DNA of 64,000 bases from Geothrix edaphica (GTDB lineage Bacteria; Acidobacteriota; Holophagae; Holophagales; Holophagaceae), in the NCBI RefSeq assembly GCF_030268045.1, contig NZ_BSDC01000001.1, positions 744,001-808,000 of the forward strand, read 5' to 3'. Below, piece by piece: positions 3,463-59,585 of this stretch; within the stretch, counting starts at the first letter, position 1; every line of letters begins with the position of its first letter. The notes below the pieces were generated by a model that worked only from the letters and a program-made list of their open reading frames with translations, was not told where the DNA came from and did no database searches. Made by a program: the position numbers and the translations under genes.

Positions 3463-6041
3463 CCCGCTTCCCGGCGTGGCTGCTCGCGCTGGTCCTCGCC
3501 GCAGGCATGGGCCGCGCGGGTGAACCCGTGCAGCGCTTCTTCGTGTCCCCGGCAGGACGGGACAGCTGGTCGGGCCATCTGTCGGCGCCGAGCGCCGATG
3601 GAACGGATGGCCCCTTCGCCACCCTCGGTCGGGCGAGGGATGCGGTCCGCGCGCTGAAGCGGGAGGGGGGAGGCGCCGGGCCGGTGTCCGTGCAGCTCCG
3701 GGGCGGGGCGTACTACCTGGAAGGACCAGTCGTCTTCGGCCCCGAGGACTCGGGCACGGCCCAGGCCCCCGTGTCGTACGAAGCCTATCCGGGAGAACGA
3801 CCGGAGCTGATCGGAGGCCGGCGGCTCACTGGATTCCAGGCACCCCCGCCGGGGAAGCCGCTCCAGATCGATCTGCCCCGTCTCCCGGGCGCGGGCTGGC
3901 GGTTCCGCTCCCTCTTCGTCGCGGGGCGCCGGGAAGTGCGGGCCCGCTATCCGAACCTTGATCCGGCCGATCCCATCCGCAGGGGGTTCCTCTTCGCGGC
4001 GGCGCAGCCTGGATATGTGGCTTTCGGGGTGACCGTGGGCGGCATCCACGGAGCGGGGGACTGGCTGGAATACCGGCTCACGGTGCCCGCGGCGGGAGAC
4101 TATGCCCTGTGGCTGCACTACGGCGCGGCGAACGCGCCCTACGGATTCTCCGCCATGGATGGCCGCTGTGCCGTCTCGGTGGACGGCCGGGCCCCGGTCG
4201 CCCTGGCGGATCTGGAGGATACGGGGGCCTGGAAGCCCGTGCGCTGGGGGCGGGCGGCCACCTTTCACCTGTCGGCGGGCGAGCATCGCCTGCGCTGGCA
4301 GAACCGAAAGGGCGGGGGGCTGGTGCTCGACGCGCTGGCCCTGTGCGACGATCCCCGGTGGCGGCCTTCGGGCGCGGACTTGCCCCCTCCGGCCCAGGGG
4401 CGGCTGGTGACCCTGTCGGCCAAGGATTTCCTCCTTGCCCGGGCTCCGCAGATGGTGGTGAGCGGCGCTGGCGGCGGACCGAAGGATGCCCTCTGGTGCG
4501 CCCCGGGCGAGTGGCATCCGGCCTGGTCCACGGCACCCGATGCGGAAGTGCACATCTTCCCCTCCGGCGAGTGCCGTGCCTTTTCGGAGATCCTCTCCAT
4601 CCAAGGCCACGACCGGGCCACGGGCCGTGTCGCGCTGGGCGGACCGGAGACCCTGGCCGCCCTGAATCCCGGCGACCGGTTCTTCATCGAGAACATCCGG
4701 GAGGAACTGGATGCGCCGGGGGAGTGGCATGTGGATGCGCAAACGGGCCGCCTCACCTACCTGCCCCGGCCGGGTTTCTCGGCGCGGACCGAAGTGATCG
4801 TCCCCCTGACCCGCCGCCTGCTGCAGGTGGAGGGGCGCCACGCGCCCCAGGGCTCCGTGCGACATCTCCGTTTCGCGGGACTGGTCCTCCGGGACACGGA
4901 CTGGGCGCGGGGCGGGGCGAGCGCGGGCTACGGCGTGGGCGAGGACGCCGCCATCGTCCTGCGGGGGGCCGAGGCCTGCGTGGTGGAGGACTGCCGCTTC
5001 CTGAACCTGGGAGGGTATGCCGTGGCCCTGGACCAGGGGCGCGGCCACGTCGTCCAGAACTGCGAGGTGGCGCATGCGGGAGGCGGGGGTGTGCTCGTGC
5101 GCGACAGCGCGGGGAACCGGATCACCGACAACCACCTGCATCACCTTGGCGAAGCCTATGCGCACGTGGGGGGCGTGGTGCTCGCGAGCGGGGCGGCGGA
5201 GAACCAGGTGGCCCACAATGCCATCCACGACTCCGCCCGCTATGGCATCTCCCTGAAGAATGCGGGCGGGCGCAATGTCATCGAGTACAACCTCATCCAG
5301 AACACCTGCCTGGAGACCTCTGATGCCGGCGGCATCGAAGTGACCCAGCACGACCGCGCCGTCCGCAGCGGCAGCTGGATCCGCTTCAACCGGGTGGCCG
5401 ACACCATCGGCTACACCTCGAGCTTCGGCGAGCCCTCCTTCCTCGCCTGGGGCATCTACCTCGATTCCTTCGCCAGCGGGTACGAAGTGCGGGGCAATGT
5501 GGTCTGCCGAGCCTGGAACGGCGGCATCATGCTCCAGGGAGGCCGGGGGAATCGGGTGGTGAACAATGTCTTCGTGGACGGCCAGGTCGCGCAGGGCACT
5601 CTGGCCAACTTCGAGGGCCAGGCCAGGGATCTCCAGTTGATGAGCAACGTCATCGCCTACAGTGCCCCCGGTGCCACCACCTTCGTCACTGGGACCCTTG
5701 GCCCCGAGGTCATCCAGGTGGACCGCAACCTCTACTTCCCGCCTCTGGGCGCGCCGCCCCGCTTCGGGGCGGGGGGCGGCCAGAGCCTGGCCGAGTGGCG
5801 GCAGGCTGGCAGAGACCGCGGATCCAAGGTGGGGGACCCTCTCTTCCAGAACCCGCGGGGGGACGACTACACCCTGCGGCCCGGATCTCCCGCCTACCTG
5901 CTCGGCTTCCAGGCCCTCCCGCCCCCGCGGCTATGGGGCCCCAGGCGCCGGCCCTGCACGTGCGCCATCCTCCCTGCGGGGCCGCGGTTCTGGGGCAAGG
6001 GGGGAGAGCGGCCCGTCCGTCAGACGAGACCAGGTGAGTGA
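3459..6041 (+). CDS. Secreted right-handed beta-helix protein with CBM6-like insert
   Basis: An 860-residue exported protein. ATG 3459 is preferred over upstream ATGs because AGGAGG lies at 3444-3449 and the product then starts with a Sec signal peptide (MTRFPAWLLALVLAAG, cut near GRAG). A DUF1565-like start (FFVSPAGRDSWSG) is followed by an early helix rung. Residues about 185-297 form a carbohydrate-binding-module-like insert (GDWLEYRLTVPAAGDYALWL). From about residue 470 there are many parallel beta-helix rungs with NxI/NxV turns (ENQVAHNAIHDS, RNVIEYNLIQNT). The fold is shared with polysaccharide lyases and C5-epimerases, so it may trim, modify or bind the exopolysaccharide. The catalytic residues were not identified. 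A distant paralog is encoded at 13256-15724. Confidence 0.8.
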   Translation: MTRFPAWLLALVLAAGMGRAGEPVQRFFVSPAGRDSWSGHLSAPSADGTDGPFATLGRARDAVRALKREGGGAGPVSVQLRGGAYYLEGPVVFGPEDSGTAQAPVSYEAYPGERPELIGGRRLTGFQAPPPGKPLQIDLPRLPGAGWRFRSLFVAGRREVRARYPNLDPADPIRRGFLFAAAQPGYVAFGVTVGGIHGAGDWLEYRLTVPAAGDYALWLHYGAANAPYGFSAMDGRCAVSVDGRAPVALADLEDTGAWKPVRWGRAATFHLSAGEHRLRWQNRKGGGLVLDALALCDDPRWRPSGADLPPPAQGRLVTLSAKDFLLARAPQMVVSGAGGGPKDALWCAPGEWHPAWSTAPDAEVHIFPSGECRAFSEILSIQGHDRATGRVALGGPETLAALNPGDRFFIENIREELDAPGEWHVDAQTGRLTYLPRPGFSARTEVIVPLTRRLLQVEGRHAPQGSVRHLRFAGLVLRDTDWARGGASAGYGVGEDAAIVLRGAEACVVEDCRFLNLGGYAVALDQGRGHVVQNCEVAHAGGGGVLVRDSAGNRITDNHLHHLGEAYAHVGGVVLASGAAENQVAHNAIHDSARYGISLKNAGGRNVIEYNLIQNTCLETSDAGGIEVTQHDRAVRSGSWIRFNRVADTIGYTSSFGEPSFLAWGIYLDSFASGYEVRGNVVCRAWNGGIMLQGGRGNRVVNNVFVDGQVAQGTLANFEGQARDLQLMSNVIAYSAPGATTFVTGTLGPEVIQVDRNLYFPPLGAPPRFGAGGGQSLAEWRQAGRDRGSKVGDPLFQNPRGDDYTLRPGSPAYLLGFQALPPPRLWGPRRRPCTCAILPAGPRFWGKGGERPVRQTRPGE

Positions 6042-6094
6042 CACTCGAGGCAAGTCCACGCAAGCATGCCATGCGGTTCAGCAAGGAGAGGGAT

Positions 6095-6217
6095 ATGGAA
6101 ACAGTTGTGGTGACGGGCTCCGCCGGTTTCATCGGACGCAACCTGGTGGCCACCCTCTTCTGGGCCAGCGAGCCCTTCGATCCCCAGTGGCCGGACACCC
6201 ATGCCCTGCCTGTCTGA
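6095..6217 (+). pseudogene. capF/wbjC remnant: N-terminus fused to C-terminus by internal deletion
   Basis: A 40-codon ORF with a good ribosome binding site (AAGGAG, 6083-6088). Residues 1-21 are a dinucleotide-binding start (VVVTGSAGFIGRNLVATL, TGxxGFIG). Residues 22-40 (FWASEPFDPQWPDTHALPV) match, from memory of the family, the conserved extreme C-terminus of CapF/WbjC, which ends like FDPxxPDTxxLxV. A normal CapF has about 370 residues, so the reductase core and cupin domain are gone and the ends are joined in frame. CapF reduces UDP-2-acetamido-2,6-dideoxy-L-talo-4-hexulose in UDP-L-FucNAc synthesis. It cannot be an active enzyme. Confidence 0.75.
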
Positions 6218-6258
6218 AGTAGCGCCTGGCGGCTGCCTCCACCCCTCCGCCCACCGGG

Positions 6259-7554
6259 ATGGTTGCGATGACTAGCGCCCTCCTGGACGGTCTGGCCGAG
6301 CGGGCCTCCCGCTATCGACCCATTCTGGGCTCGGTGGCCGCGCTGTTCAGCGGCAACATGGCCGCGTCCATCCTCGGGGCCCTGGGCGGGCTGCTGGTGG
6401 CCCGGTTCATCGGTCCCGAGGAAGCGGGCCGCTTCCGCACCTACACCATCCCCCTTCTGTATCTCACCTTCCTGCATCTCGGGACCTTCGACGGGCTCTG
6501 GCGGCAGATCCCCTTCTACACGGGGCGCAACCAGCCGGATCAGGTCGAAGTCGTCGCCTCGGCCGCCGGGGCCTGGAACCTGCTGGTGTCCGCCGGGGCT
6601 TCGGGGGTCTTCCTGGCCCTGGCCGTGGCGGCCATCATCCGCGGGGACCTCTACGCCTTCAGCGGCTGGCTCTCCCAGGTGCTCTCCGCCTGGGGGGTGT
6701 ACTACGCAGGGTATCTGCGCGCCACCTACCGGACCATCCACCAGTTCGTGTCTCTTGCCCGGGTCCAGCTCATCCAGGCTGCGCTCAGCTTCGCGCTGGT
6801 CTTCCTCGTTCCCTTCCTGGGCTTCTTCGGACTATGCCTGCGAGGGTCTGTTCCGGGCCTGGCCGGGACCGGCCTCCTCCACCGGGGCAGACCCCTGCGC
6901 ATCCGCTACCGGCTGGACCGCCGGGCCCTCGGTGAAGTCGTGCGGGTGGGGCTTCCCTTCAGCCTCTGGGGGAGTCTGAACACCTCCATCTGGGTTGCCA
7001 CGGAAAGCGCCCTGATGCTTTCGCTCGGAGGGCTGACGGGCCTCGGGCTCTTCGCCGTGGCCGTCGTCATCCGCGATGGCCTGAACGTCCTCCCCCAGTC
7101 GGTCTACCAGGTGCTCACTCCCAGGGTCGTCGAGGCCTATGCGCGGGAGGGCAGCGTGCGCACCGCCCATGCCCGCTCGCTGTTCGTCACCGCCGGTTTG
7201 ACGCTCACCATGCTGGCTGTGGTGGGGCTCAGCTCGGTCCTGCTGGGCCTGCTGGTGCCCTGGGCGATCCCCAAGTACGCCCAGGGGGTGCCTCTGATGA
7301 AGGTCTGCCTCTGGTTCTCGGTCATCGAGGCCGCCTCGCTGCCCTTCAACACCTTGTTCGCCACCGGGCGGTCCTGGCTCTGGGGCCGGGGCATCCTCGT
7401 CGGGCTGGTGGTGTTCCCCCTCAGCAGCTACCTGCTGGTTCCGGTCGTGGGAGGCATGATGGCGGTGGGGCTGGGATCGCTCCTCGGCCGGGTCGCCCGG
7501 ACGCTGGTCGGATACTTGGAACTCGCAGTGCTGACACGCAAGGAGCGGCCATGA
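6259..7554 (+). CDS. Polysaccharide flippase (Wzx-like, MOP superfamily)
   Basis: A 431-residue polytopic membrane protein with about 12 hydrophobic segments, likely flipping undecaprenyl-linked repeat units across the inner membrane. It begins with a helix around AALFSGNMAASILGALGGLLVA (residues 29-50), followed by GPEEAGRFR, a pattern seen in PST/MATE-like flippases. Start could be ATG 6259 or ATG 6268; neither has a strong Shine-Dalgarno. The stop overlaps the polymerase start (ATGA). The gene follows the deleted capF, so the deletion has not cut it off from the operon. Confidence 0.8.
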   Translation: MVAMTSALLDGLAERASRYRPILGSVAALFSGNMAASILGALGGLLVARFIGPEEAGRFRTYTIPLLYLTFLHLGTFDGLWRQIPFYTGRNQPDQVEVVASAAGAWNLLVSAGASGVFLALAVAAIIRGDLYAFSGWLSQVLSAWGVYYAGYLRATYRTIHQFVSLARVQLIQAALSFALVFLVPFLGFFGLCLRGSVPGLAGTGLLHRGRPLRIRYRLDRRALGEVVRVGLPFSLWGSLNTSIWVATESALMLSLGGLTGLGLFAVAVVIRDGLNVLPQSVYQVLTPRVVEAYAREGSVRTAHARSLFVTAGLTLTMLAVVGLSSVLLGLLVPWAIPKYAQGVPLMKVCLWFSVIEAASLPFNTLFATGRSWLWGRGILVGLVVFPLSSYLLVPVVGGMMAVGLGSLLGRVARTLVGYLELAVLTRKERP

Positions 7555-9086
7555 GCCCCCAGGACCTTCCCCTCCTCTCCACCGACGGGGCGGCGGAAGG
7601 AAACCGCTCGGCGCTGATCCTTCCGTTCGTGCTGGGCATGGGGATCAACCTGGTCTCCCTGCTGGTGGGCGAGCCGTACCGCATGGCCGAGCTGGGGCTG
7701 GCCGTCGCCCTGGTCGCGACCCTCGCCTGGTCGGCCCGGCCCCTGACCTGGATCGTGTTCACCGCCGTGCTCGCCGCGAATCCCGCCAACACCTCGACCC
7801 CCGTGGCCCTCAACCTCTTCTGCGCGGCGGTCTATTTCGCGCTGGCGCGGCGAAGCGGGGTGGGCAGGCTGCCGAGACTGGCCCAGGTTGCGCTCTTCCT
7901 CGCGGTGCTCTCGCTTGTCATCAGCATCCTGGCCTCCCTGTGGCTGGATCCTGCCACCGCCACCATCCACACCACGGACGTCTCGCAGCCGCGCCCCTGG
8001 GGGACCACCTGGGCCGGAGGGGCCTCCATGGAGATGCTGACCTCCCAGGGGGTCTCCGTGGCCAACTACCTGCTGGGCCCCTTCCTGTTCATCCCGCTCA
8101 TCTGCTCGCGGATCCGGGAGGACCACGACCCGGACCTGCTGCTGAAGGGCCTGGTGCTGGGCTTCCTGGTGCCGACCCTGCTGATGTTCCTGCTGGCCAG
8201 GACCCTGGGGAAGCCCACTTTCGACGCCAACGCCCTGCGGGAAGGGATGCTCAACGTATCGACCTTCCGCTTGGGCCAGCTGGACATCCAGATGATCCGC
8301 ACCCAGGTGGGCATCGTGCTCGCAGCGCTGATCTGCGCCTCCTTCGCCGTGGCCGTGGCCCAGGTCGGGCGGGGGGTGCGCCTGGCGGCCGCCGCCTGCC
8401 TGGCCCTCTCCGGCTACTTCCTGCTGGTCACAGGCAGCGTCGGCAGCTCCCTGGCGGCCCTGGCGGGCATCGTGCTGATCCTCCTGCTGGGCAAGCGACG
8501 CTTCTCGGTGCGGCGCTACGCCCTGGTGCTGGTGGCGGGCGGGGGACTCCTGGTGGGCGCCTGGGCAGTGCTGCCTGAGGGCGTGCAGCGCTATGCGGTC
8601 ACCCGGTACGAAGTGAGGGTGGGAGGGGGAGGCCCCGCCACAGCCACCGCCGACCGGGCCTGGCGCTGGAAGAAGTCCTTCAGCTACCTCATGGACAACC
8701 CCAGCGGCGTCGGCTGGTCGCTGTACGTGGAACCCCTGGGGATCTACCCACACAACGACTACCTGACCTACGGCATCGCCTTCGGGGTGCTGTGCGGCCT
8801 GCTCTACTTCCTGCTTCCCTCGGGTCTGCTGCTCTCTTTCGTGGCGTTCAAGCCCGGGGCTGCGGAATCAGCCCGCTTCGCCTTGTCCCTGGCGGGGGCG
8901 GGGGCGGCCACGGTGCTGCTCCTGAACTCCCTGTCCGATCACATGACCGCCAACCGCTGGTACTTCAACGTGGTGTGGATGATGATCTGGTACGCCTTCT
9001 TCGCCAGCCGCGCCCGGCCTGTCGCCGCGGAAACCCCTGAAGGGCCGCCTCCGGCTGACTCCATCCAGAGGAGCCCGCTGCCATGA
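7551..9086 (+). CDS. O-antigen/exopolysaccharide polymerase-ligase (Wzy-like)
   Basis: A 511-residue membrane protein with about 11-12 hydrophobic segments and one larger external loop (around residues 130-180 and again 345-410). The pattern GWSLYVEPLGIYPHNDYL followed by more TM helices is typical of the Wzy_C/O-antigen-ligase superfamily, in which a conserved HN(D/x)YL motif lies in the periplasmic loop. The expected role is to polymerise flipped repeat units in the periplasm. Sequence in this family is weakly conserved, so the call rests on topology, the HND loop and location between Wzx and glycosyltransferases. It overlaps its neighbours on both sides by 4 bases. Confidence 0.8.
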   Translation: MSPQDLPLLSTDGAAEGNRSALILPFVLGMGINLVSLLVGEPYRMAELGLAVALVATLAWSARPLTWIVFTAVLAANPANTSTPVALNLFCAAVYFALARRSGVGRLPRLAQVALFLAVLSLVISILASLWLDPATATIHTTDVSQPRPWGTTWAGGASMEMLTSQGVSVANYLLGPFLFIPLICSRIREDHDPDLLLKGLVLGFLVPTLLMFLLARTLGKPTFDANALREGMLNVSTFRLGQLDIQMIRTQVGIVLAALICASFAVAVAQVGRGVRLAAAACLALSGYFLLVTGSVGSSLAALAGIVLILLLGKRRFSVRRYALVLVAGGGLLVGAWAVLPEGVQRYAVTRYEVRVGGGGPATATADRAWRWKKSFSYLMDNPSGVGWSLYVEPLGIYPHNDYLTYGIAFGVLCGLLYFLLPSGLLLSFVAFKPGAAESARFALSLAGAGAATVLLLNSLSDHMTANRWYFNVVWMMIWYAFFASRARPVAAETPEGPPPADSIQRSPLP

Positions 9087-50274: not shown

Positions 50275-50691
50275 ATGTGTCGCGAGTCGATACGAAGGAC
50301 CTTGGCGCTGTCGGCTGGTATCGCCCCGGATTCGCGCGGCGTGGCTGAGGCCACCCTCCGCACTTGGGGCCAGATGGCGGCGCGGCTGGCCCCCGTCATC
50401 GGCGCGCGTGGAGTCGATGCCCTCTTCGGCCGCTCGCTACAGGTGACAAGCGCTACCTTCCCCTGGCTTTCAAAGGCCGGGGGGTCGGATGACAGCGCCA
50501 ACCCCCTGACAAACCTCAGAGCGAGCCTCGAGGCCATTGATCCGGTGGTGGGCACCGAAGGGAGCTTCGCCCTGCTGGTGGCCTTCACCGAGCTGCTGGC
50601 AGCTCTGATCGGAGAGTCCTTGACTGAGCGTCTGCTGGATCCGGTATGGACGCCTCCGAAGCCCACGACCGAACAGGAGACCCATCCATGA
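50275..50691 (+). CDS. Unknown helical protein heading the KaiC-like operon
   Basis: A protein of 138 residues from ATG 50275 (AGGA 4 bases upstream); ATG 50245 or ATG 50122 are in-frame alternatives giving 148 or 189 residues. It looks largely helical: RRTLALSAGIAPDSRGVAEA, then TLRTWGQMAARLAPVIGARG and a C-terminal helix SFALLVAFTELLAALIGESL. No family is recognised and no TM helix or signal is seen. Its stop overlaps the KaiC-like ATG (ATGA), so it is made together with that ATPase and is a candidate partner or regulator of the signalling pair downstream. Confidence 0.6.
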   Translation: MCRESIRRTLALSAGIAPDSRGVAEATLRTWGQMAARLAPVIGARGVDALFGRSLQVTSATFPWLSKAGGSDDSANPLTNLRASLEAIDPVVGTEGSFALLVAFTELLAALIGESLTERLLDPVWTPPKPTTEQETHP

Positions 50692-52175
50692 GAAGAAAAG
50701 TGACCATCAGCCTACTTGCCACAGGCGTCCCCGGACTGGACTCCATCCTGGGCGGCGGCCTCCCGGAGTTCTCCTTCAATCTGATTGCGGGCCCCCCGGG
50801 ATCCGGAAAGACCACGCTGGCGCATCAGATCATGTTCGCCCTGGCGACGCCGGAGCGCCGGGCGCTGTTCTTCACCGTGCTGGGGGAATCGCCGCTGAAG
50901 ATGCTCCGCTACCAGCAGCAGTTCTCCTTCTTTGATCCAGGGAAGGTCAACCAATCCATCAAGTTCGTGAACCTGAGCCACGAGGTCACGACCGGTCATT
51001 TCGACCAGGTCCTGGCCCGCATCATGGAGGAGGTCAAAGCCTTTTCCCCGGGGCTGGTGTTCGTCGATTCCTTCCGCTCCCTCATGTTGGAGGCCAGCCA
51101 CCAGGCCAATTCGACGATGAGCCCGCTGCAGTTCATGCAGGAACTCGGGATCAAGCTGAGCGGATGGCAGGCCACGGCCTTCCTGATCGGGGAATACATT
51201 TCCGACAACGACGCCCAGCCGGTCTCCTCGGTGGCCGATGGCCTCCTGTCACTGAATCAGAGCGTTTACCGGAACTCGATGGTGCGCAAGATCCAGGTCC
51301 TGAAAATGCGTGGCCAGCAGACCAGCCCGGGGATTCATACCTTCCGGATCACCGGCGATGGCCTTGAAGTCTTCCCGGCGGCCACCATTCCCAGTGATAG
51401 CGGGGCCATGGGGCCCCCCTCCCGGCGTCCGCACTCCCAACGGCGGCTGACCATGGGCGTACCCGGTCTTGATGACATGCTGGGCGGCGGCCTGCCAGCC
51501 GGCTATTCGCTGCTGGTTGCAGGGCCGTCCGGGTCCGGGAAGACGATCCTCGCCACGGCCTTCCTGTCTGAAGGCGTCCGCCTGGGCGAACCGGGCGTGA
51601 TCGTCGCCTTCGAGCAGACGCCGAGCCAGTCGTGGACCCGCACGATCGACGAGCTGGTCCGGGCCGGGAAGATCGGCCTGATCAACACCAGGCTGCTGGA
51701 TCTGTCGATCGACGAGATTGTCCAGCACCTGATCGACCTCATCCAGAAGATGAAGGCGACCCGGGTGGTGATCGACTCGCTGTCCGGGTTCGAACTGGCC
51801 GTGGCGCCAACCTTCCGGGAGGATTTCCGCGAATCGCTGTTCCGCATGATCACCGTCCTGTCCGGCCTCGGCGTGACGGTGCTGATGACTTCGGAACTCG
51901 AAGACCGGTACACGGACCTGCGATTCAGCTCCTATGGGTCGGCGTTCCTCACCGACGCGATCATCGTCCAGCGCTACATCGAGATGAACAGCCGCTTGAA
52001 GCGCGTCATGGCGGTCGTCAAGGTGCGCGGGAGCAACCACAGCGACCAGCTCCGGCAGTATGAGGTCACGGATGAAGGCATCGTGATCGGTGAGCCGGTG
52101 GTCGACTACGAGCGGCTCCTCGGCGGGCAGCCGACGCCGACGATCGCCCAGCCTGGCGTGGGCGAGCCGCGATGA
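50688..52175 (+). CDS. KaiC-like double-domain RecA-superfamily ATPase
   Basis: A 495-residue protein with two KaiC domains. First domain: GVPGLDSILGGGLPEFS, Walker A GPPGSGKTT (Lys41) and GLVFVDSFRSL. Second domain: GVPGLDDMLGGGLPAGYS, Walker A GPSGSGKT (Lys285) and RVVIDSLSGFEL. In cyanobacterial KaiC each domain has a Glu-Glu pair; here the equivalents are Gly66-Glu67 and Glu309-Gln310. AGGAG lies about 8 bases before ATG 50688. With no kaiA or kaiB nearby, it is more likely a signalling or DNA-repair-like ATPase than a clock. It is coupled to the genes on both sides by 4-base overlaps. Confidence 0.88.
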   Translation: MRRKVTISLLATGVPGLDSILGGGLPEFSFNLIAGPPGSGKTTLAHQIMFALATPERRALFFTVLGESPLKMLRYQQQFSFFDPGKVNQSIKFVNLSHEVTTGHFDQVLARIMEEVKAFSPGLVFVDSFRSLMLEASHQANSTMSPLQFMQELGIKLSGWQATAFLIGEYISDNDAQPVSSVADGLLSLNQSVYRNSMVRKIQVLKMRGQQTSPGIHTFRITGDGLEVFPAATIPSDSGAMGPPSRRPHSQRRLTMGVPGLDDMLGGGLPAGYSLLVAGPSGSGKTILATAFLSEGVRLGEPGVIVAFEQTPSQSWTRTIDELVRAGKIGLINTRLLDLSIDEIVQHLIDLIQKMKATRVVIDSLSGFELAVAPTFREDFRESLFRMITVLSGLGVTVLMTSELEDRYTDLRFSSYGSAFLTDAIIVQRYIEMNSRLKRVMAVVKVRGSNHSDQLRQYEVTDEGIVIGEPVVDYERLLGGQPTPTIAQPGVGEPR

Positions 52176-53644
52176 GCGACCGTGAGCGCGCCCGCCAGAC
52201 GGGCCCGGCCGGACCTCCGCCTGGGGCGGGCAAAAGCGCGCCTGGCCCGGGCTCGGTGGCGGTGGAGAGCAGAGGAATCAGCGAAGAGGTGCTGCGGGAA
52301 GCGAATGAGGGCCTCGTCCTTGCGACCGTCAACGCCCAGGCCATGACGGATGCGGCGGAGCAGGCCGCCGCGCAGCTGCGGGAAGCGAACGAAAGCCTTG
52401 TCATCGCGACGGTCAATGCCCAGACCCTGGCCCAGGCTGCCGAGCAGGCCGCCGCCCAGATCTCCTATACCGCCCACCTCGAAGCCCAGCTTCTGGAGGC
52501 CCAGAAGCTGGAGACCCTCGGCGTGCTCGCCGGTGGCGTCGCCCACGACTTCAACAACCTCCTCACCGCCATGCTGGGCAATGCGAACCTGGGCACCATG
52601 GCCGCGGAAGAGGGGCGCAGCGTGGCGCCCTATTTCGCGGCCATCGAGAAGGCGGCCATGCGGGCGGCCAGTCTCACGCGCCAGCTGCTGGCCTACGCGG
52701 GGACCGGGAAACCGGTCATGGCCGAGGTCGACCTCGGGATTGTCGTCAAGGAGGTCATCCAGGTCTTCACCGCCTCCCTTCCCAGGAACGTGACCCTCAG
52801 CTGCGATCTGGCGGAGCGGCTCCCGCTGGTGCATGGCGACGCCACCCAGATCTTCCAGGTCCTCATGAACCTGGTCACCAATGCTGCTGAAGCTTGCCAG
52901 ACAGACAGGGAGGGCCGGATCAACATCCGGACCCGCGAGGAGTACATGGACGAGGCGGCCCTCGGGGTCGGCCACTGGGTACTGCCCTTGACGCCGGGCC
53001 GCTACGCCACGCTGGATGTAAGGGATACGGGGGAGGGGATGGAGCCCGAGGTGGTGAAGCGGGCCTTCGAGCCCTTCTTCACGACGAAATTCACGGGCCG
53101 CGGGCTGGGCCTGGCCGCGGTGATGGGAATCATCCGCAGCCACGGGGGCGGGCTCTGGGTGGGAAGCGAGCCCGATTGCGGCTCCTCCTTCAAGATCTTC
53201 ATGCCCGCCATGGCGGACTCGGCGTTGATGCCTCCCCCGGAAGCTTTGCCGCAGGCCTGGCGTGGGCAGGGTCGCATCCTCGTGGTCGATGATGAGCTGG
53301 CCGTCGGCCAGGTGGCCCGGAGCATGGCGGAGCACTTCGGCTTCTCCGTCCTTGACGCCAGGGATGGCCTGGAGGCCGTGGAGCTCTTCCGCCTGCACCA
53401 CGGGGAGCTGGCCATGGTGCTCATGGACCTCATCATGCCGGGCATGGGCGGGCAGGAGGCCTTCCGGGAAATGCGGAAAATCGACAGCACCGTCCCGGTG
53501 GTGCTCAGCAGCGGCTACAACGTTTCGGACACGGACCTCTTCGTCGAGGGGCTGGCCGGGCTCCTCAAGAAGCCCTATCGGCTGGCAGAGTTCCAGGAAG
53601 CCCTTCAGCGGGCCCTGGCGATGCGGCTGCTTCCGCCAGGCTAG
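52172..53644 (+). CDS. Hybrid histidine kinase-receiver
   Basis: A 490-residue soluble sensor kinase. Residues 1-35 are disordered. Two exact-length 28-residue repeats (41-68, 69-96) form a probable coiled coil. HisKA box GVLAGGVAHDFNNLLTAML carries His125. The HATPase has N-box QVLMNLVTNAAEA, G1 DVRDTGEGM, F-box FEPFFTTKFTGRGLGL. A C-terminal receiver (about 369-485) has ILVVDDELAVGQ and phosphoacceptor Asp419 in VLMDLIMPGMG, with Lys in LLKKPYRL. There is no TM or PAS domain, so the input may come from the KaiC-like protein coupled upstream (inference). The kinase head is NtrB-like. Confidence 0.9.
   Translation: MSDRERARQTGPAGPPPGAGKSAPGPGSVAVESRGISEEVLREANEGLVLATVNAQAMTDAAEQAAAQLREANESLVIATVNAQTLAQAAEQAAAQISYTAHLEAQLLEAQKLETLGVLAGGVAHDFNNLLTAMLGNANLGTMAAEEGRSVAPYFAAIEKAAMRAASLTRQLLAYAGTGKPVMAEVDLGIVVKEVIQVFTASLPRNVTLSCDLAERLPLVHGDATQIFQVLMNLVTNAAEACQTDREGRINIRTREEYMDEAALGVGHWVLPLTPGRYATLDVRDTGEGMEPEVVKRAFEPFFTTKFTGRGLGLAAVMGIIRSHGGGLWVGSEPDCGSSFKIFMPAMADSALMPPPEALPQAWRGQGRILVVDDELAVGQVARSMAEHFGFSVLDARDGLEAVELFRLHHGELAMVLMDLIMPGMGGQEAFREMRKIDSTVPVVLSSGYNVSDTDLFVEGLAGLLKKPYRLAEFQEALQRALAMRLLPPG
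52292..52459 (+). repeat. Two 84-base tandem repeats in the kinase N-terminus
   Basis: Units 52292-52375 and 52376-52459 encode LREANEGLVLATVNAQAMTD and LREANESLVIATVNAQTLAQ, each ending AAEQAAAQ. Twenty-eight residues equal four heptads, so the repeat extends a coiled coil without breaking register. Confidence 0.85.
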
Positions 53645-55746: not shown

Positions 55747-56373
55747 ATGAGGATCCTCCCGCTGCTGCTCCTGACGCTGTCCCTCCCGGCCCAGACGATA
55801 CCGGCGGTTCCGGAGAAGGCCACGGCCTTCGAGCGGGCGGTGGTCCAGGAGATGAGCGACGCACGGGTGCAGCCGAAGGCCTACGCGAAGCACCTGCGAG
55901 AGCTGCGGCCGTACTTCGAGGGCACGCTCTGGAACCGGCCTGGCCGCGTGCCGCTGCGCACGGAGGAGGGCGTGGCCGCCCTGGACGAGGCCATCGCCTT
56001 CCTGGAATCGGCCCGGCCGGTGGGGCCCTTGCGCTTCAACGAAGGCCTGGCCCGGGCGGCCCGGCTGCATGCCCTGGACATCGGGCCCCGGGGCTCGCTC
56101 GAACACGTGGGGTCCGACGGCAGCCGCCTCTCGGATCGCCTGAACCGGCGCGGTCGCTGGGAAGGACTCATCGCCGAGAACATCAGCACCGGCGAGGAGG
56201 AGGCCCGCCAGGTGGTGCTCCAGCTGCTGATCGACGATGGCGTGGCCAGCCGCGGGCACCGGAGGAACCTCTTCAACCCCGGGCTGCACCAGGCCGGAGC
56301 CGGTGCCGCGCCGCACCGGGACTACCGCATCGTGATGGTGATCGACTACGCAGACGGGTTCGTGGCGCGCTAA
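55747..56373 (+). CDS. CAP/SCP-domain secreted protein
   Basis: A 208-residue exported protein with a short signal peptide (MRILPLLLLTLSLPAQ). The CAP fold is shown by PLRFNEGLARAARLHALDIG, EHVGSDGSRLSDRLNRRG, GLIAENISTGEEEARQVVLQ and LIDDGVASRGHRRNLFNP, which include the His, Glu and His cluster of the CAP pocket. Bacterial CAP proteins are of uncertain function, possibly binding lipids or metals outside the cell. GAGG precedes the ATG. It follows the DUF4395 gene by about 50 bases. Confidence 0.88.
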   Translation: MRILPLLLLTLSLPAQTIPAVPEKATAFERAVVQEMSDARVQPKAYAKHLRELRPYFEGTLWNRPGRVPLRTEEGVAALDEAIAFLESARPVGPLRFNEGLARAARLHALDIGPRGSLEHVGSDGSRLSDRLNRRGRWEGLIAENISTGEEEARQVVLQLLIDDGVASRGHRRNLFNPGLHQAGAGAAPHRDYRIVMVIDYADGFVAR

Positions 56374-56414: not shown

Positions 56415-57203
56415 ATGATGGCTTTCCTTGCGCGGCTGGGTGCGCCGGTGCGCGGCTTCCTGGAGTTCCTGGGCGACCAGGCGCACTTGGTGCTTCGGAC
56501 GCTGCGCTCGGGCTTGGCCCTCCGCGCCGGTCAGCTGGCGGCGGTGGGCGGGCAGACCGGACTCCAGATCCGCTTCACGGGCCTCGATGCGGGAGTGCTC
56601 GTGGCGGGCACGGCCCTGCTGCTGGGCGCGGTGACGCTCATCCAGGCCTTCAGTCAGCTGTCCGGCCTGGGCGCGGAGAACTACATCGGCACGCTCATGG
56701 TGCTCATCGTCCTGCGGGAGCTGGGCCCGCTGCTGACGGCCGTGCTGGTCATCGGCCGCAGCTCCACGGCCATCGCGGCGGAGCTGGGTGCCATGCAGCT
56801 CAACGGCGAGGTGGACGCGCTGGCGGCCCACGGTGTGGACCCCTACCAGTACCTGCTGCTGCCCCGCTGGCTGGGGGTGCTCGTGTCGGTCTTCGCCCTG
56901 GTGGTGTTCTTCGACGCCGCGGCCCTGGGCGGCGGCTTCCTGGTGGCCCGGCTGAAGTACGGCATCACCTGGGCCTTCTTCATGGCCTCCGTGCGACAGG
57001 CGCTGTCGAACCTCGATTTCGCGGCGACCCTGCTGAAGGTCTTCTTCTTCTCCGGCGCCATCACCTTCCACGCCTGCCACTTCGGGCTCCGCGTCCAGCG
57101 CAGCCAGACCGAGATCCCGCAGGCCGTCACCCGCACCGTGGTGTCCGCCCTGGTGGCGGTGTTCATCCTCGACGGCCTCATCGCCGCGCTCTTCTACTTC
57201 TGA
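56415..57203 (+). CDS. MlaE-family ABC transporter permease
   Basis: A 262-residue inner-membrane permease of lipid/MCE transport systems. Five to six hydrophobic segments are present. Conserved segments are LIQAFSQLSGLGAENYIGT, LRELGPLLTAVLVIGRSSTA (the MlaE signature RELGPLLTALxxAGR), and AIAAELGAMQLNGEVDALAA (the EIGTMxxxEQIDAL-like coupling helix). It would move phospholipid between inner membrane and periplasmic MCE protein. Its stop overlaps the ATPase start by one base (TGATG). Confidence 0.9.
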   Translation: MMAFLARLGAPVRGFLEFLGDQAHLVLRTLRSGLALRAGQLAAVGGQTGLQIRFTGLDAGVLVAGTALLLGAVTLIQAFSQLSGLGAENYIGTLMVLIVLRELGPLLTAVLVIGRSSTAIAAELGAMQLNGEVDALAAHGVDPYQYLLLPRWLGVLVSVFALVVFFDAAALGGGFLVARLKYGITWAFFMASVRQALSNLDFAATLLKVFFFSGAITFHACHFGLRVQRSQTEIPQAVTRTVVSALVAVFILDGLIAALFYF

Positions 57204-57868
57204 TGCTCCAGGGCCGCGGCATCTCCTGCGCTTCACCGGACGGGCGGGCCCTGCTGGAGGGGCTGGACCTGCAGGTGCCGAAGGGCGGGAACCTGCTGGT
57301 CACGGGGCCCAGCGGCTCCGGCAAGAGCCGCCTGCTGAAGGTGGTCGCGGGCATGGAGCGCCCGAGGGGCGGAGAAGTCCGGATCGCGGGTCTCGCGGTC
57401 TGGCCGGGTGATGGGGCCCTGGCCCTGGTGGGGCGCGTCCGGATGGGCTTCGCCTTCGCCTCGGGCGGACTGCTGTCAAACCTCAGCCTGGCGGACAACG
57501 TGGCCCTCCCCCTGCGGTTCCAGGGACTGCCGAAACCCGAGGTCCTGCGCCGGACCTGGGGCGCGCTGGAGCGGCTGGGCCTCGAGGCGGTGGCCCGGCT
57601 CCGGCCCCATGCGGTGAGCGGCGCCGCGCGGAAGCACGCGAACCTGGCCCGCGTACTGGCCCTCGAACCGGACCTGATCCTGCTGGACGCTCCGCTGGAG
57701 GGCCTGGACGCCGCGGATCGCGCCGTGGCCCTGGACCTGATCCGCGCCTGGGCCGCGGATCCTGCCTGCACGCTCGTGATGGCCTCGGAGGAGGCCCAGG
57801 ATTTTCAGGGACTGGAGGCGGAGAGTCTCCCGCTGCCCCAGGAGCCCATGCTCATGGAGTCGACGTGA
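57203..57868 (+). CDS. MlaF-like ABC ATPase with degenerate catalytic motifs
   Basis: A 221-residue nucleotide-binding subunit. Walker A is intact (GPSGSGKS, residues 35-42). Other catalytic elements are altered: Q-loop position Ala86 (FAFASGGL versus FQSGAL in MlaF), signature VSGAAR (138-143) instead of LSGGM, Walker B LILLDAP with Ala163 in place of the catalytic Glu, and Glu196 where the H-loop His should be (MASEE). The overall frame and length are kept and it is coupled to MlaE and MlaD genes. It may bind but hardly hydrolyse ATP, or it may work as a structural subunit. Confidence 0.85.
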   Translation: MLQGRGISCASPDGRALLEGLDLQVPKGGNLLVTGPSGSGKSRLLKVVAGMERPRGGEVRIAGLAVWPGDGALALVGRVRMGFAFASGGLLSNLSLADNVALPLRFQGLPKPEVLRRTWGALERLGLEAVARLRPHAVSGAARKHANLARVLALEPDLILLDAPLEGLDAADRAVALDLIRAWAADPACTLVMASEEAQDFQGLEAESLPLPQEPMLMEST

Positions 57869-58830
57869 ACTTCGAGAAGCAGGATGCCCGGCTCGGGCTC
57901 TTCGTCCTCCTGGCCCTGGTCCTGTTCATCGGGCTGCTGGCCTACAAGAACGCGGGTGCCGTCACTGAGAAGACCTACCCGCTGGTGGTGCGGCTCGAGC
58001 AGATGGAAGGGCTGGTGCCCGGCACCGACGTGCAGCTGAGGGGCTACCGGGTGGGCGCCGTGGAGCGGCTCGACATGCGGCAGGAGGGAACGGACTACCA
58101 CTTCCTGGCCACCCTGGCCGTGCGAACGGACATCCGCCTCTGGCGGGGCACCCGGGCCGTGGTGGCGCCCAAGGGGGTGGGGAGCGTGATGCTCGACCTG
58201 CGCCTGCCCCCGCCCGGGGAACGCACCGTGGTCCTGGTCGCGGGCGACCAGATCCCGGGGGAGGAGGGGGTGTCCCTGGGGGGCGTGCTGGAACGCGCCG
58301 ACCGTCTGCTGGCGAACCTGAACATATCCTTGGACGCGGTGCGGGAGCGGGTCCGGCAGAAGGGGCTGGGCGACCTGCTGGAGCATCCCTCCGTGGCCCA
58401 GGCGCTCCGCTCGCTGGATGCCACTCTGCGGGAGTTCCAGGCCCTGGCCCGGGAGGGTCGCGGCCTGGCCTCCCACGCGGATCGCAGCATGGGAGAGGCC
58501 GACCGGGCCCTCGTCGACCTGGAGAAGAGCCTGGCCGTGACCCGGGCCCTGCTGGAGAAGCGGGCGCCGGAGCTGGATCGGATACTGGTCAGCCTGGCCT
58601 CGGTCCTCCAGCAGTCGGACACCCTGCTGGCCCGCTTCCAGGCCGAGGATCAGCCCGAGCTGGAGGCCAGCCTCAAGGCGCTGCGGCGCTCCCTGGATTC
58701 CGTGGAGGAACTGCTGCAGCTGCTGAAGCAGAAGCCCAGCCGAGTCGTCTGGGGCACTCCCAGCGAGGCTGAACGGGAGAAGGCCAGACAGGCCCTGGAG
58801 GCCGCCAAGGCCCCGGCATCCCCGAAGTAG
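57865..58830 (+). CDS. MlaD/MCE-domain periplasmic lipid-binding protein
   Basis: A 321-residue protein anchored by one TM helix (RLGLFVLLALVLFIGLLAY, about residues 9-27). The MCE domain (about 38-118) includes VVRLEQMEGLVPGTDVQLRG and KGVGSVMLDLRL. A long helical tail (about 145-300) follows, likely forming a hexameric tube. It should ferry lipids between the inner and outer membrane with MlaE and the ATPase. Start GTG 57865 overlaps the ATPase stop (GTGA). Confidence 0.9.
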   Translation: MNFEKQDARLGLFVLLALVLFIGLLAYKNAGAVTEKTYPLVVRLEQMEGLVPGTDVQLRGYRVGAVERLDMRQEGTDYHFLATLAVRTDIRLWRGTRAVVAPKGVGSVMLDLRLPPPGERTVVLVAGDQIPGEEGVSLGGVLERADRLLANLNISLDAVRERVRQKGLGDLLEHPSVAQALRSLDATLREFQALAREGRGLASHADRSMGEADRALVDLEKSLAVTRALLEKRAPELDRILVSLASVLQQSDTLLARFQAEDQPELEASLKALRRSLDSVEELLQLLKQKPSRVVWGTPSEAEREKARQALEAAKAPASPK

Positions 58831-59030: not shown

Positions 59031-59585
59031 ATGGGCAGCATCGCAACCATCCACAACGGCGTGAATGTGGAGGCCCTCAACACCACCGTCTCGATGGTGA
59101 AGGCCAACCCCGCCCTCGCCAAGTTCACCTTCCGGTCCAAGGCCAAGTGGATCAACGGGGCCCATTCCCAGAGCACCTTCGATTCGCTCTACGGGGCGGG
59201 AATGGAGCACAAGCGGAGCACCCCGATGTTCCTCGAAGCCGACGAGCCCGAGGCCCTCCTGGGCACCGACCTGGCGCCCAACGCCGGAGAGGCGGCGCTC
59301 CACGCCCTCAGCGCCTGCCTGAGCGTGACCTACGCCTACAACGCCACGGCCATGGGCCTGGACATCAGCAGCCTGAGCTTCGATATGGAGACGGATTCCG
59401 ATCTCCAGGGGTTCCTGGAACTGGACAAGAAGGTCCGGCCGGGATTGTCCCAGATCCGCGTGAAGGTGAACCTCGCCTGCAGCGGCACCCCGGCCCAGAT
59501 CCAGGAACTCCACGAGAAGGTGATCCGCACCTCACCCCTGTATGACACCTTCAAGAACCCCGTAGACATCCAGATGAGCCACTGA
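59031..59585 (+). CDS. OsmC-family protein
   Basis: A 184-residue cytoplasmic protein of the OsmC/Ohr fold. It keeps the helical signature NAGEAALHALSACLSVTYAYN with one conserved Cys (about residue 103), but the first peroxidatic Cys of Ohr is replaced, since the FLEADEPEALLGTDLAPN region has none. Start ATG 59031 has AGGAGGAGG upstream, among the best sites in the window. It may act in hydroperoxide or thiol stress response. A subfamily cannot be assigned. Confidence 0.85.
   Translation: MGSIATIHNGVNVEALNTTVSMVKANPALAKFTFRSKAKWINGAHSQSTFDSLYGAGMEHKRSTPMFLEADEPEALLGTDLAPNAGEAALHALSACLSVTYAYNATAMGLDISSLSFDMETDSDLQGFLELDKKVRPGLSQIRVKVNLACSGTPAQIQELHEKVIRTSPLYDTFKNPVDIQMSH

Follow-up and report, generated by a model that had tools for sequence, protein, structure and literature searches.

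The closest described systems to the locus analysed here are MCE transporters of the Mla type. In nucleotide-free E. coli MlaFEDB, MlaE has an outward-open conformation facing the MlaD channel, and without ATP phospholipid is handed on spontaneously by MlaD to MlaC, a transfer that ATP hydrolysis prevents (PMC10212509, PMC11289387). The activity of E. coli MlaF is abolished by the substitution K47R (PMC5016091) and reduced by ~80% by E170Q alone (PMC7784689). Veillonella parvula has a minimal MlaEFD system, encoded by a three-gene E-F-D operon with overlapping mlaF and mlaD codons and a long MlaD, and lacks MlaA and MlaC (PMC10665443). LetAB and PqiABC also conduct lipids through MCE proteins, but their membrane part includes no ABC ATPase (PMC12436622). 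Both NBD-free MCE systems (Let, Pqi) and ABC transporters in which one site is degenerate are already known; in the open-access literature, we found no report of a degenerate or inactive MlaF, or of a conserved inactive NBD in an MCE system. Whether MCE transporters depend on ATP, under what circumstances they do so, and which way the lipids flow are matters of dispute.

In the window, i.e., the whole 64,000-nucleotide stretch of DNA that was analysed from the soil bacterium Geothrix edaphica, we identified an operon with the gene order E2 (MlaE), F2 (MlaF-type ABC nucleotide-binding subunit), and D2 (MCE/MlaD):

56418..57203, plus strand: E2, MlaE-family permease, 261 aa (Pfam MlaE PF02405, E=8.4e-59)
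57203..57868, plus strand: F2, putative MlaF-type pseudo-ATPase, 221 aa (Pfam, alignment, AlphaFold2 pLDDT 92.2)
57865..58830, plus strand: D2, MCE/MlaD protein, 321 aa (Pfam MlaD PF02470, E=1.7e-10; NCBIfam Mtu_fam_mce, E=2.5e-18)

The TGA of E2 overlaps the ATG of F2, the F2 reading frame is uninterrupted over 57203-57868 to its TGA stop, and the GTG start of D2 at 57865 overlaps that stop; the claim of an earlier note on this DNA, that the frame is open and coupled to the MlaE and MlaD genes, is thus borne out. E2 is 75-93% identical to its counterparts in Geothrix genomes, F2 matches Pfam ABC_tran (E=7.9e-18), and D2 consists of an N-terminal hydrophobic segment, the MCE domain, and a long C-terminal part. 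With an MlaE permease, an MCE protein, and an MlaF-type NBD in one operon, E2-F2-D2 falls within the MlaEFD/MCE lineage.

As in E. coli MlaFEDB, the MlaE permease, the subunit with the MlaF fold, and the MCE/MlaD protein are encoded together, and MlaF is the nearest solved structure to F2. Unlike MlaF, F2 lacks the Gln, LSGG, Glu, and His and has a shorter C-terminus, and the Geothrix genome (3.16 Mb, 99.2% complete) contains no MlaC (PF05494) or MlaA (PF04333) detectable at E<=0.001, while the E. coli and Caulobacter controls were positive. With V. parvula, the Geothrix locus shares the three-gene E-F-D operon, the overlapping mlaF/mlaD codons, and the lack of MlaA and MlaC, whereas it differs in the probable pseudo-ATPase and the 321-aa MlaD. 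Whereas LetAB and PqiABC use LetA/PqiA and no NBD, E2-F2-D2 retains MlaE and a subunit with the NBD fold.

The motif columns of F2 were set by alignment with 40 canonical MlaF (23 system-1 MlaF of the same family, described below, and 17 class- or phylum-level homologs), in which Q, LSGG, E, and H are all kept in 40/40. The corresponding F2 features are as follows:

57305..57328, plus strand: Walker A, G35-PSGSGKS-42, intact in Geothrix edaphica (alignment)
57458..57460, plus strand: Ala86 at the Q-loop Gln site (alignment)
57614..57631, plus strand: VSGAAR (residues 138-143) at the LSGGMxR site (alignment)
57689..57691, plus strand: Ala163 at the catalytic Glu site (alignment)
57788..57790, plus strand: Glu196 at the switch His site (alignment; Glu in 41/41 Geothrix)

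The earlier note had read Ala86, VSGAAR, Ala163, and Glu196 as replacements, and the alignment with MlaF homologs places all four in the Q-loop, LSGG, Glu, and His columns. It had also held Walker A alone to be intact; Walker A is indeed kept, but so are Asp162 of Walker B and Asp169 of the D-loop. Misalignment was rejected as an explanation, as the Q, E, and H columns are consistent in a 94-sequence alignment and the canonical paralogs all line up. F2 also scores below the cut-off of the NCBIfam MlaF equivalog NF008809 (93.7-94.9 bits against 441 bits), as does the canonical F1 (218 bits). The set of motifs of a functional MlaF ATPase is reduced in F2 to Walker A, with the Gln, LSGG, Glu, and His replaced, and the near-dead ATPase suggested previously is strongly supported at the level of sequence. 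With four motifs lost, F2 is expected to have no useful rate of ATP hydrolysis, and the complex to rest in the open state.

F2 orthologs are present in 42 of the 47 Geothrix genomes, the remaining five also lacking E2 and D2, and an F2 adjoins E2 in all neighbourhoods that were read. Among 41 full-length Geothrix F2, one per species, the Q-loop Gln is kept in none (Ala in 36, Pro in 5), the LSGG signature is absent from all, the switch site is never His, and the catalytic Glu is lost in 35. The Ala163 of the window's F2 is real but atypical, since this site holds Asp in 31 species, Glu in 6, Ala in 2, and Gly in 2; the changes fixed in Geothrix are those of the Q-loop, the signature, and the switch site. 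In F2 from 13 genomes of other genera of the family, the Walker A Lys and the catalytic Glu are each kept in 2/13, and the Gln and His in 0/13. Motif loss is thus found in 41/41 Geothrix and 13/13 other-genera genomes vs. 0/40 canonical controls, and the original observation was not only correct but understated. Dozens of genomes share the degenerate state, among them those of isolates (e.g., G. fermentans DSM 14018), so that chance and assembly error are excluded, and a frameshift or MAG artefact was likewise rejected.

It is conceivable that F2 hydrolyses ATP slowly with re-invented or residual chemistry, in which Asp163, Glu196, or other residues take over; Glu196 is invariant in Geothrix, and site 163 is acidic in 37/41. 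However, the window's own F2 has Ala163, Glu196 is absent from most other genera, and the signature and Q-loop are gone as well, and we consider such an activity very unlikely. A second alternative is that F2 is an ATP-binding but non-hydrolysing subunit through which the nucleotide level gates MlaE, or that it is a cytosolic regulator. Nucleotide may still bind Geothrix F2 because the Walker A Lys (37/41) and the Walker B Asp (41/41) are kept, and the D-loop Asp is also retained in 36/41. Against a switch of this kind, the Walker A Lys is lost in 11/13 genomes of other genera, in the more distant L191 (see below), and in a three-species Geothrix subclade (L094, L096, L098) whose P-loop itself is gone (GxxGTGRGH, e.g., GAGGTGRGH); moreover, closure of an ABC dimer on ATP needs the signature, which F2 no longer has. 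The Lys losses and the missing signature therefore make ATP binding at most a lineage feature, and a role as ATP-binding switch appears improbable.

In a phylum-level sample of 396 Acidobacteriota genomes, two further families possess E2 relatives (47% identity, E<1e-57), and the adjoining F is degenerate in both. The F of L191 lacks the Walker A Lys and the His and has Arg in place of the Glu, and that of L190 has lost the signature Gly pair and the His and has Asp in place of the Glu; the Q-loop Gln is kept in each. In the MlaE tree, all E2-type permeases with a degenerate F form one clade with a support of 100/100, apart from the permeases with a canonical F, and the placement of the long branches L190, L191, and L175 within this clade is unsure. 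A single origin of the E2-F2 system is the simplest reading, and the signature, Glu, and His appear to have been affected first, followed in some lines by the Q-loop and Walker A.

Despite this decay of the ATP site, F2 is under selection as a protein. No nonsense change was seen in the 41 F2, compared with ~172 expected under neutrality (40 species; tree length of 14.5 substitutions per site at four-fold sites), and the length is 219-222 aa in nearly all. NG86 dN/dS, which ignores codon bias, is 0.30-0.45 for F2 in the closest pairs (median 0.41), 0.06-0.10 for E2 in close pairs (median 0.18), 0.30 for D2, 0.10 for F1, and 0.125 for E1; one row of this set (L102) has an over-extended upstream stretch, which was dropped from the counts through pairwise gaps. 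F2 therefore evolves about four times faster than F1, and the dN/dS values together with the absent stops indicate that selection still maintains the F2 protein, though less stringently than it would a working ATPase. The view that F2 is probably not a pseudogene is strongly supported by the missing stops, the purifying selection, and the conserved length across species, and the pseudogene candidate was rejected.

It could still be argued that F2 is a decaying remnant, on its way out or kept solely for translational coupling, as its dN/dS exceeds that of E2, D2, and F1 and some lineages show decay of the P-loop and the C-terminus. Such a remnant would be hard to reconcile with the lack of stops, the constant length, and derived invariant residues (see below), or with a confidently predicted fold and retention across several families, and is highly improbable in our view.

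AlphaFold2 predicts an NBD fold for F2 (29 rows; pLDDT 92.2). The best Foldseek match by E-value is E. coli MlaF (32% identity, TM 0.85), which is also the best PDB sequence match (1.3e-27); FtsE, LolD, and MalK match the structure at Z equal to or above that of MlaF, as expected for a shared fold. The AlphaFold2 model of E2 (19 rows) was poor (pLDDT 48) and was discarded. In ABC transporters, the coupling helix fits into a groove lined by the segment after the Q-loop. This segment of F2 and its presumed counterpart in E2, for which the term coupling helix is used by analogy with MlaE, are located as follows:

57446..57520, plus strand: F2 residues 82-106, Q-loop and presumed coupling-helix groove (conservation ranking)
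56781..56825, plus strand: E2 coupling-helix segment ELGAMQLNGEVDALA, canonical T-E-Q changed to N-G-E (alignment)

Residues 82-106 are the most conserved 25-residue window of F2 (rank 1/189 among 54 F2). Four derived residues among them are invariant, namely G88, G89, N93, and P103; their counterparts in F1 are A, A, S, and, in most cases, G. On the permease side, T-E-Q is changed to x-G-E/D in nearly all E2 (12 E2, 4 class-level E, and 5 E1 aligned). The combination of a decayed ATP site with a retained, derived docking face would be the pattern of a structural subunit.

The genome contains exactly two MlaE and two MCE proteins. System 1 (E1-F1-D1) lies around G000:C1:1143567-1145453 on the minus strand, with its genes again ordered E-F-D, and no catalytic motif is missing from its MlaF, F1, or from the system-1 MlaF of the same family (23/23 intact). 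The earlier note had raised the prospect of a second mlaF elsewhere in the genome; there is exactly one, canonical and adjacent to an MlaE and an MlaD of its own. By the MlaF model, F1 alone is a clear MlaF (218 bits, compared with 94 for F2), and an orphan MlaF was rejected, since the next-scoring genes (119 and 117 bits) are LptB-like (L003, as read from its sequence) and LolD-like. A canonical MlaF beside its own MlaE and MlaD suggests that a powered MCE system would coexist with an unpowered one in the same cell. The system-1 MlaD (L083, G000:C1:1138000-1150000, minus-strand ORF 5963-7565) is much longer, at ~490 aa, and its C-terminal part looks like a Veillonella-type outer-membrane beta-barrel MlaD. 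With its intact MlaF and longer MlaD, system 1 looks closer to V. parvula MlaEFD than system 2 does.

The most serious rival explanation, given that the same cells contain F1, is that E2 is powered externally, with the canonical F1 also serving E2, alone or as an F1-F2 heterodimer. A single MceG serves several Mce systems, which offers a parallel for sharing in trans. F1 is intact and occurs in the same genomes as E2, and heterodimeric ABC transporters with a degenerate site exist (e.g., PMC12038006). TAP, BmrCD, CydDC, and MsRv1273c/72c resemble F2 in that loss of catalytic residues in an NBD is tolerated by evolution; however, these are heterodimers with one good site, whereas the E2-F2-D2 operon encodes a single NBD, so that an F2 homodimer would have no good site, and F1 is encoded elsewhere in the genome. 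Pairing F1 with F2 would leave neither composite site undamaged, as the catalytic half of F1 meets the broken signature of F2 and the catalytic half of F2 is without Glu, Gln, and His. In addition, the E2 coupling helix is derived, the subunit that stays with E2 is F2 and not F1, and genera without E2 retain F1. We therefore regard powering by F1 as unlikely.

Overall, we favour, with slightly better than even confidence, the reading of E2-F2-D2 as a passive lipid conduit in which F2 is a conserved structural pseudo-ATPase and MlaE is held nucleotide-free and open. The system would derive from a conventional MlaEFD ABC transporter in which the NBD turned structural: F2 would still fold as an NBD and dock on the MlaE coupling helices but would be unable to form or use a normal ATP sandwich, so that the complex should remain nucleotide-free and open, with MlaE and the MCE ring providing a continuous hydrophobic path. 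Affinity or mass action could then drive a passive exchange of lipids that links the inner membrane with the MCE tunnel or with a partner in the outer membrane. We propose this conduit, scaffolded by F2, from the loss of four motifs and the behaviour of ATP-free E. coli MlaFEDB, a precedent that makes passive transfer the best fit by analogy; the acceptor of the E. coli assays has no counterpart in Geothrix, given the lack of a recognisable MlaC or MlaA. The passive conduit would perhaps balance the powered system 1. The broader proposal, that an acidobacterial MCE clade made an ATP-driven MlaEFD into an unpowered conduit held open by a pseudo-ATPase, running alongside the cell's powered MlaEFD and perhaps in the opposite direction, is more tentative, and we place it somewhat short of an even chance.

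A natural lineage in which MlaE, an MCE protein, and an NBD-fold subunit persist without catalysis would allow the structural contribution of the NBD to be told apart from its action as a motor, and the powered system 1 in the same cell is a ready comparison for system 2. Annotation pipelines would label F2 as ATP-binding and predict that the transporter is driven by ATP, probably in error.

Several minor observations concern the surroundings of the operon. A protein with a CAP domain (PF00188) and a likely signal peptide is encoded at 55747-56373 (plus strand) of the window. It precedes E2 by 44 bases and is conserved at this position in most Geothrix, as well as in G055 and G103. Since CAP proteins elsewhere are lipid binders, it could be a partner of E2-F2-D2. 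In two drafts, the D2 reading frame contains one in-frame stop each (TAG in G042:C55:409-1356 and TGA in G102:C106:2352-3308). An OsmC-like gene (59031-59585, plus strand) follows D2 in part of Geothrix and is 88-97% identical in the nearer species. Further upstream, a KaiC-like protein with two ATPase domains (50646-52175, plus strand) is encoded directly before a hybrid histidine kinase (52172-53644).
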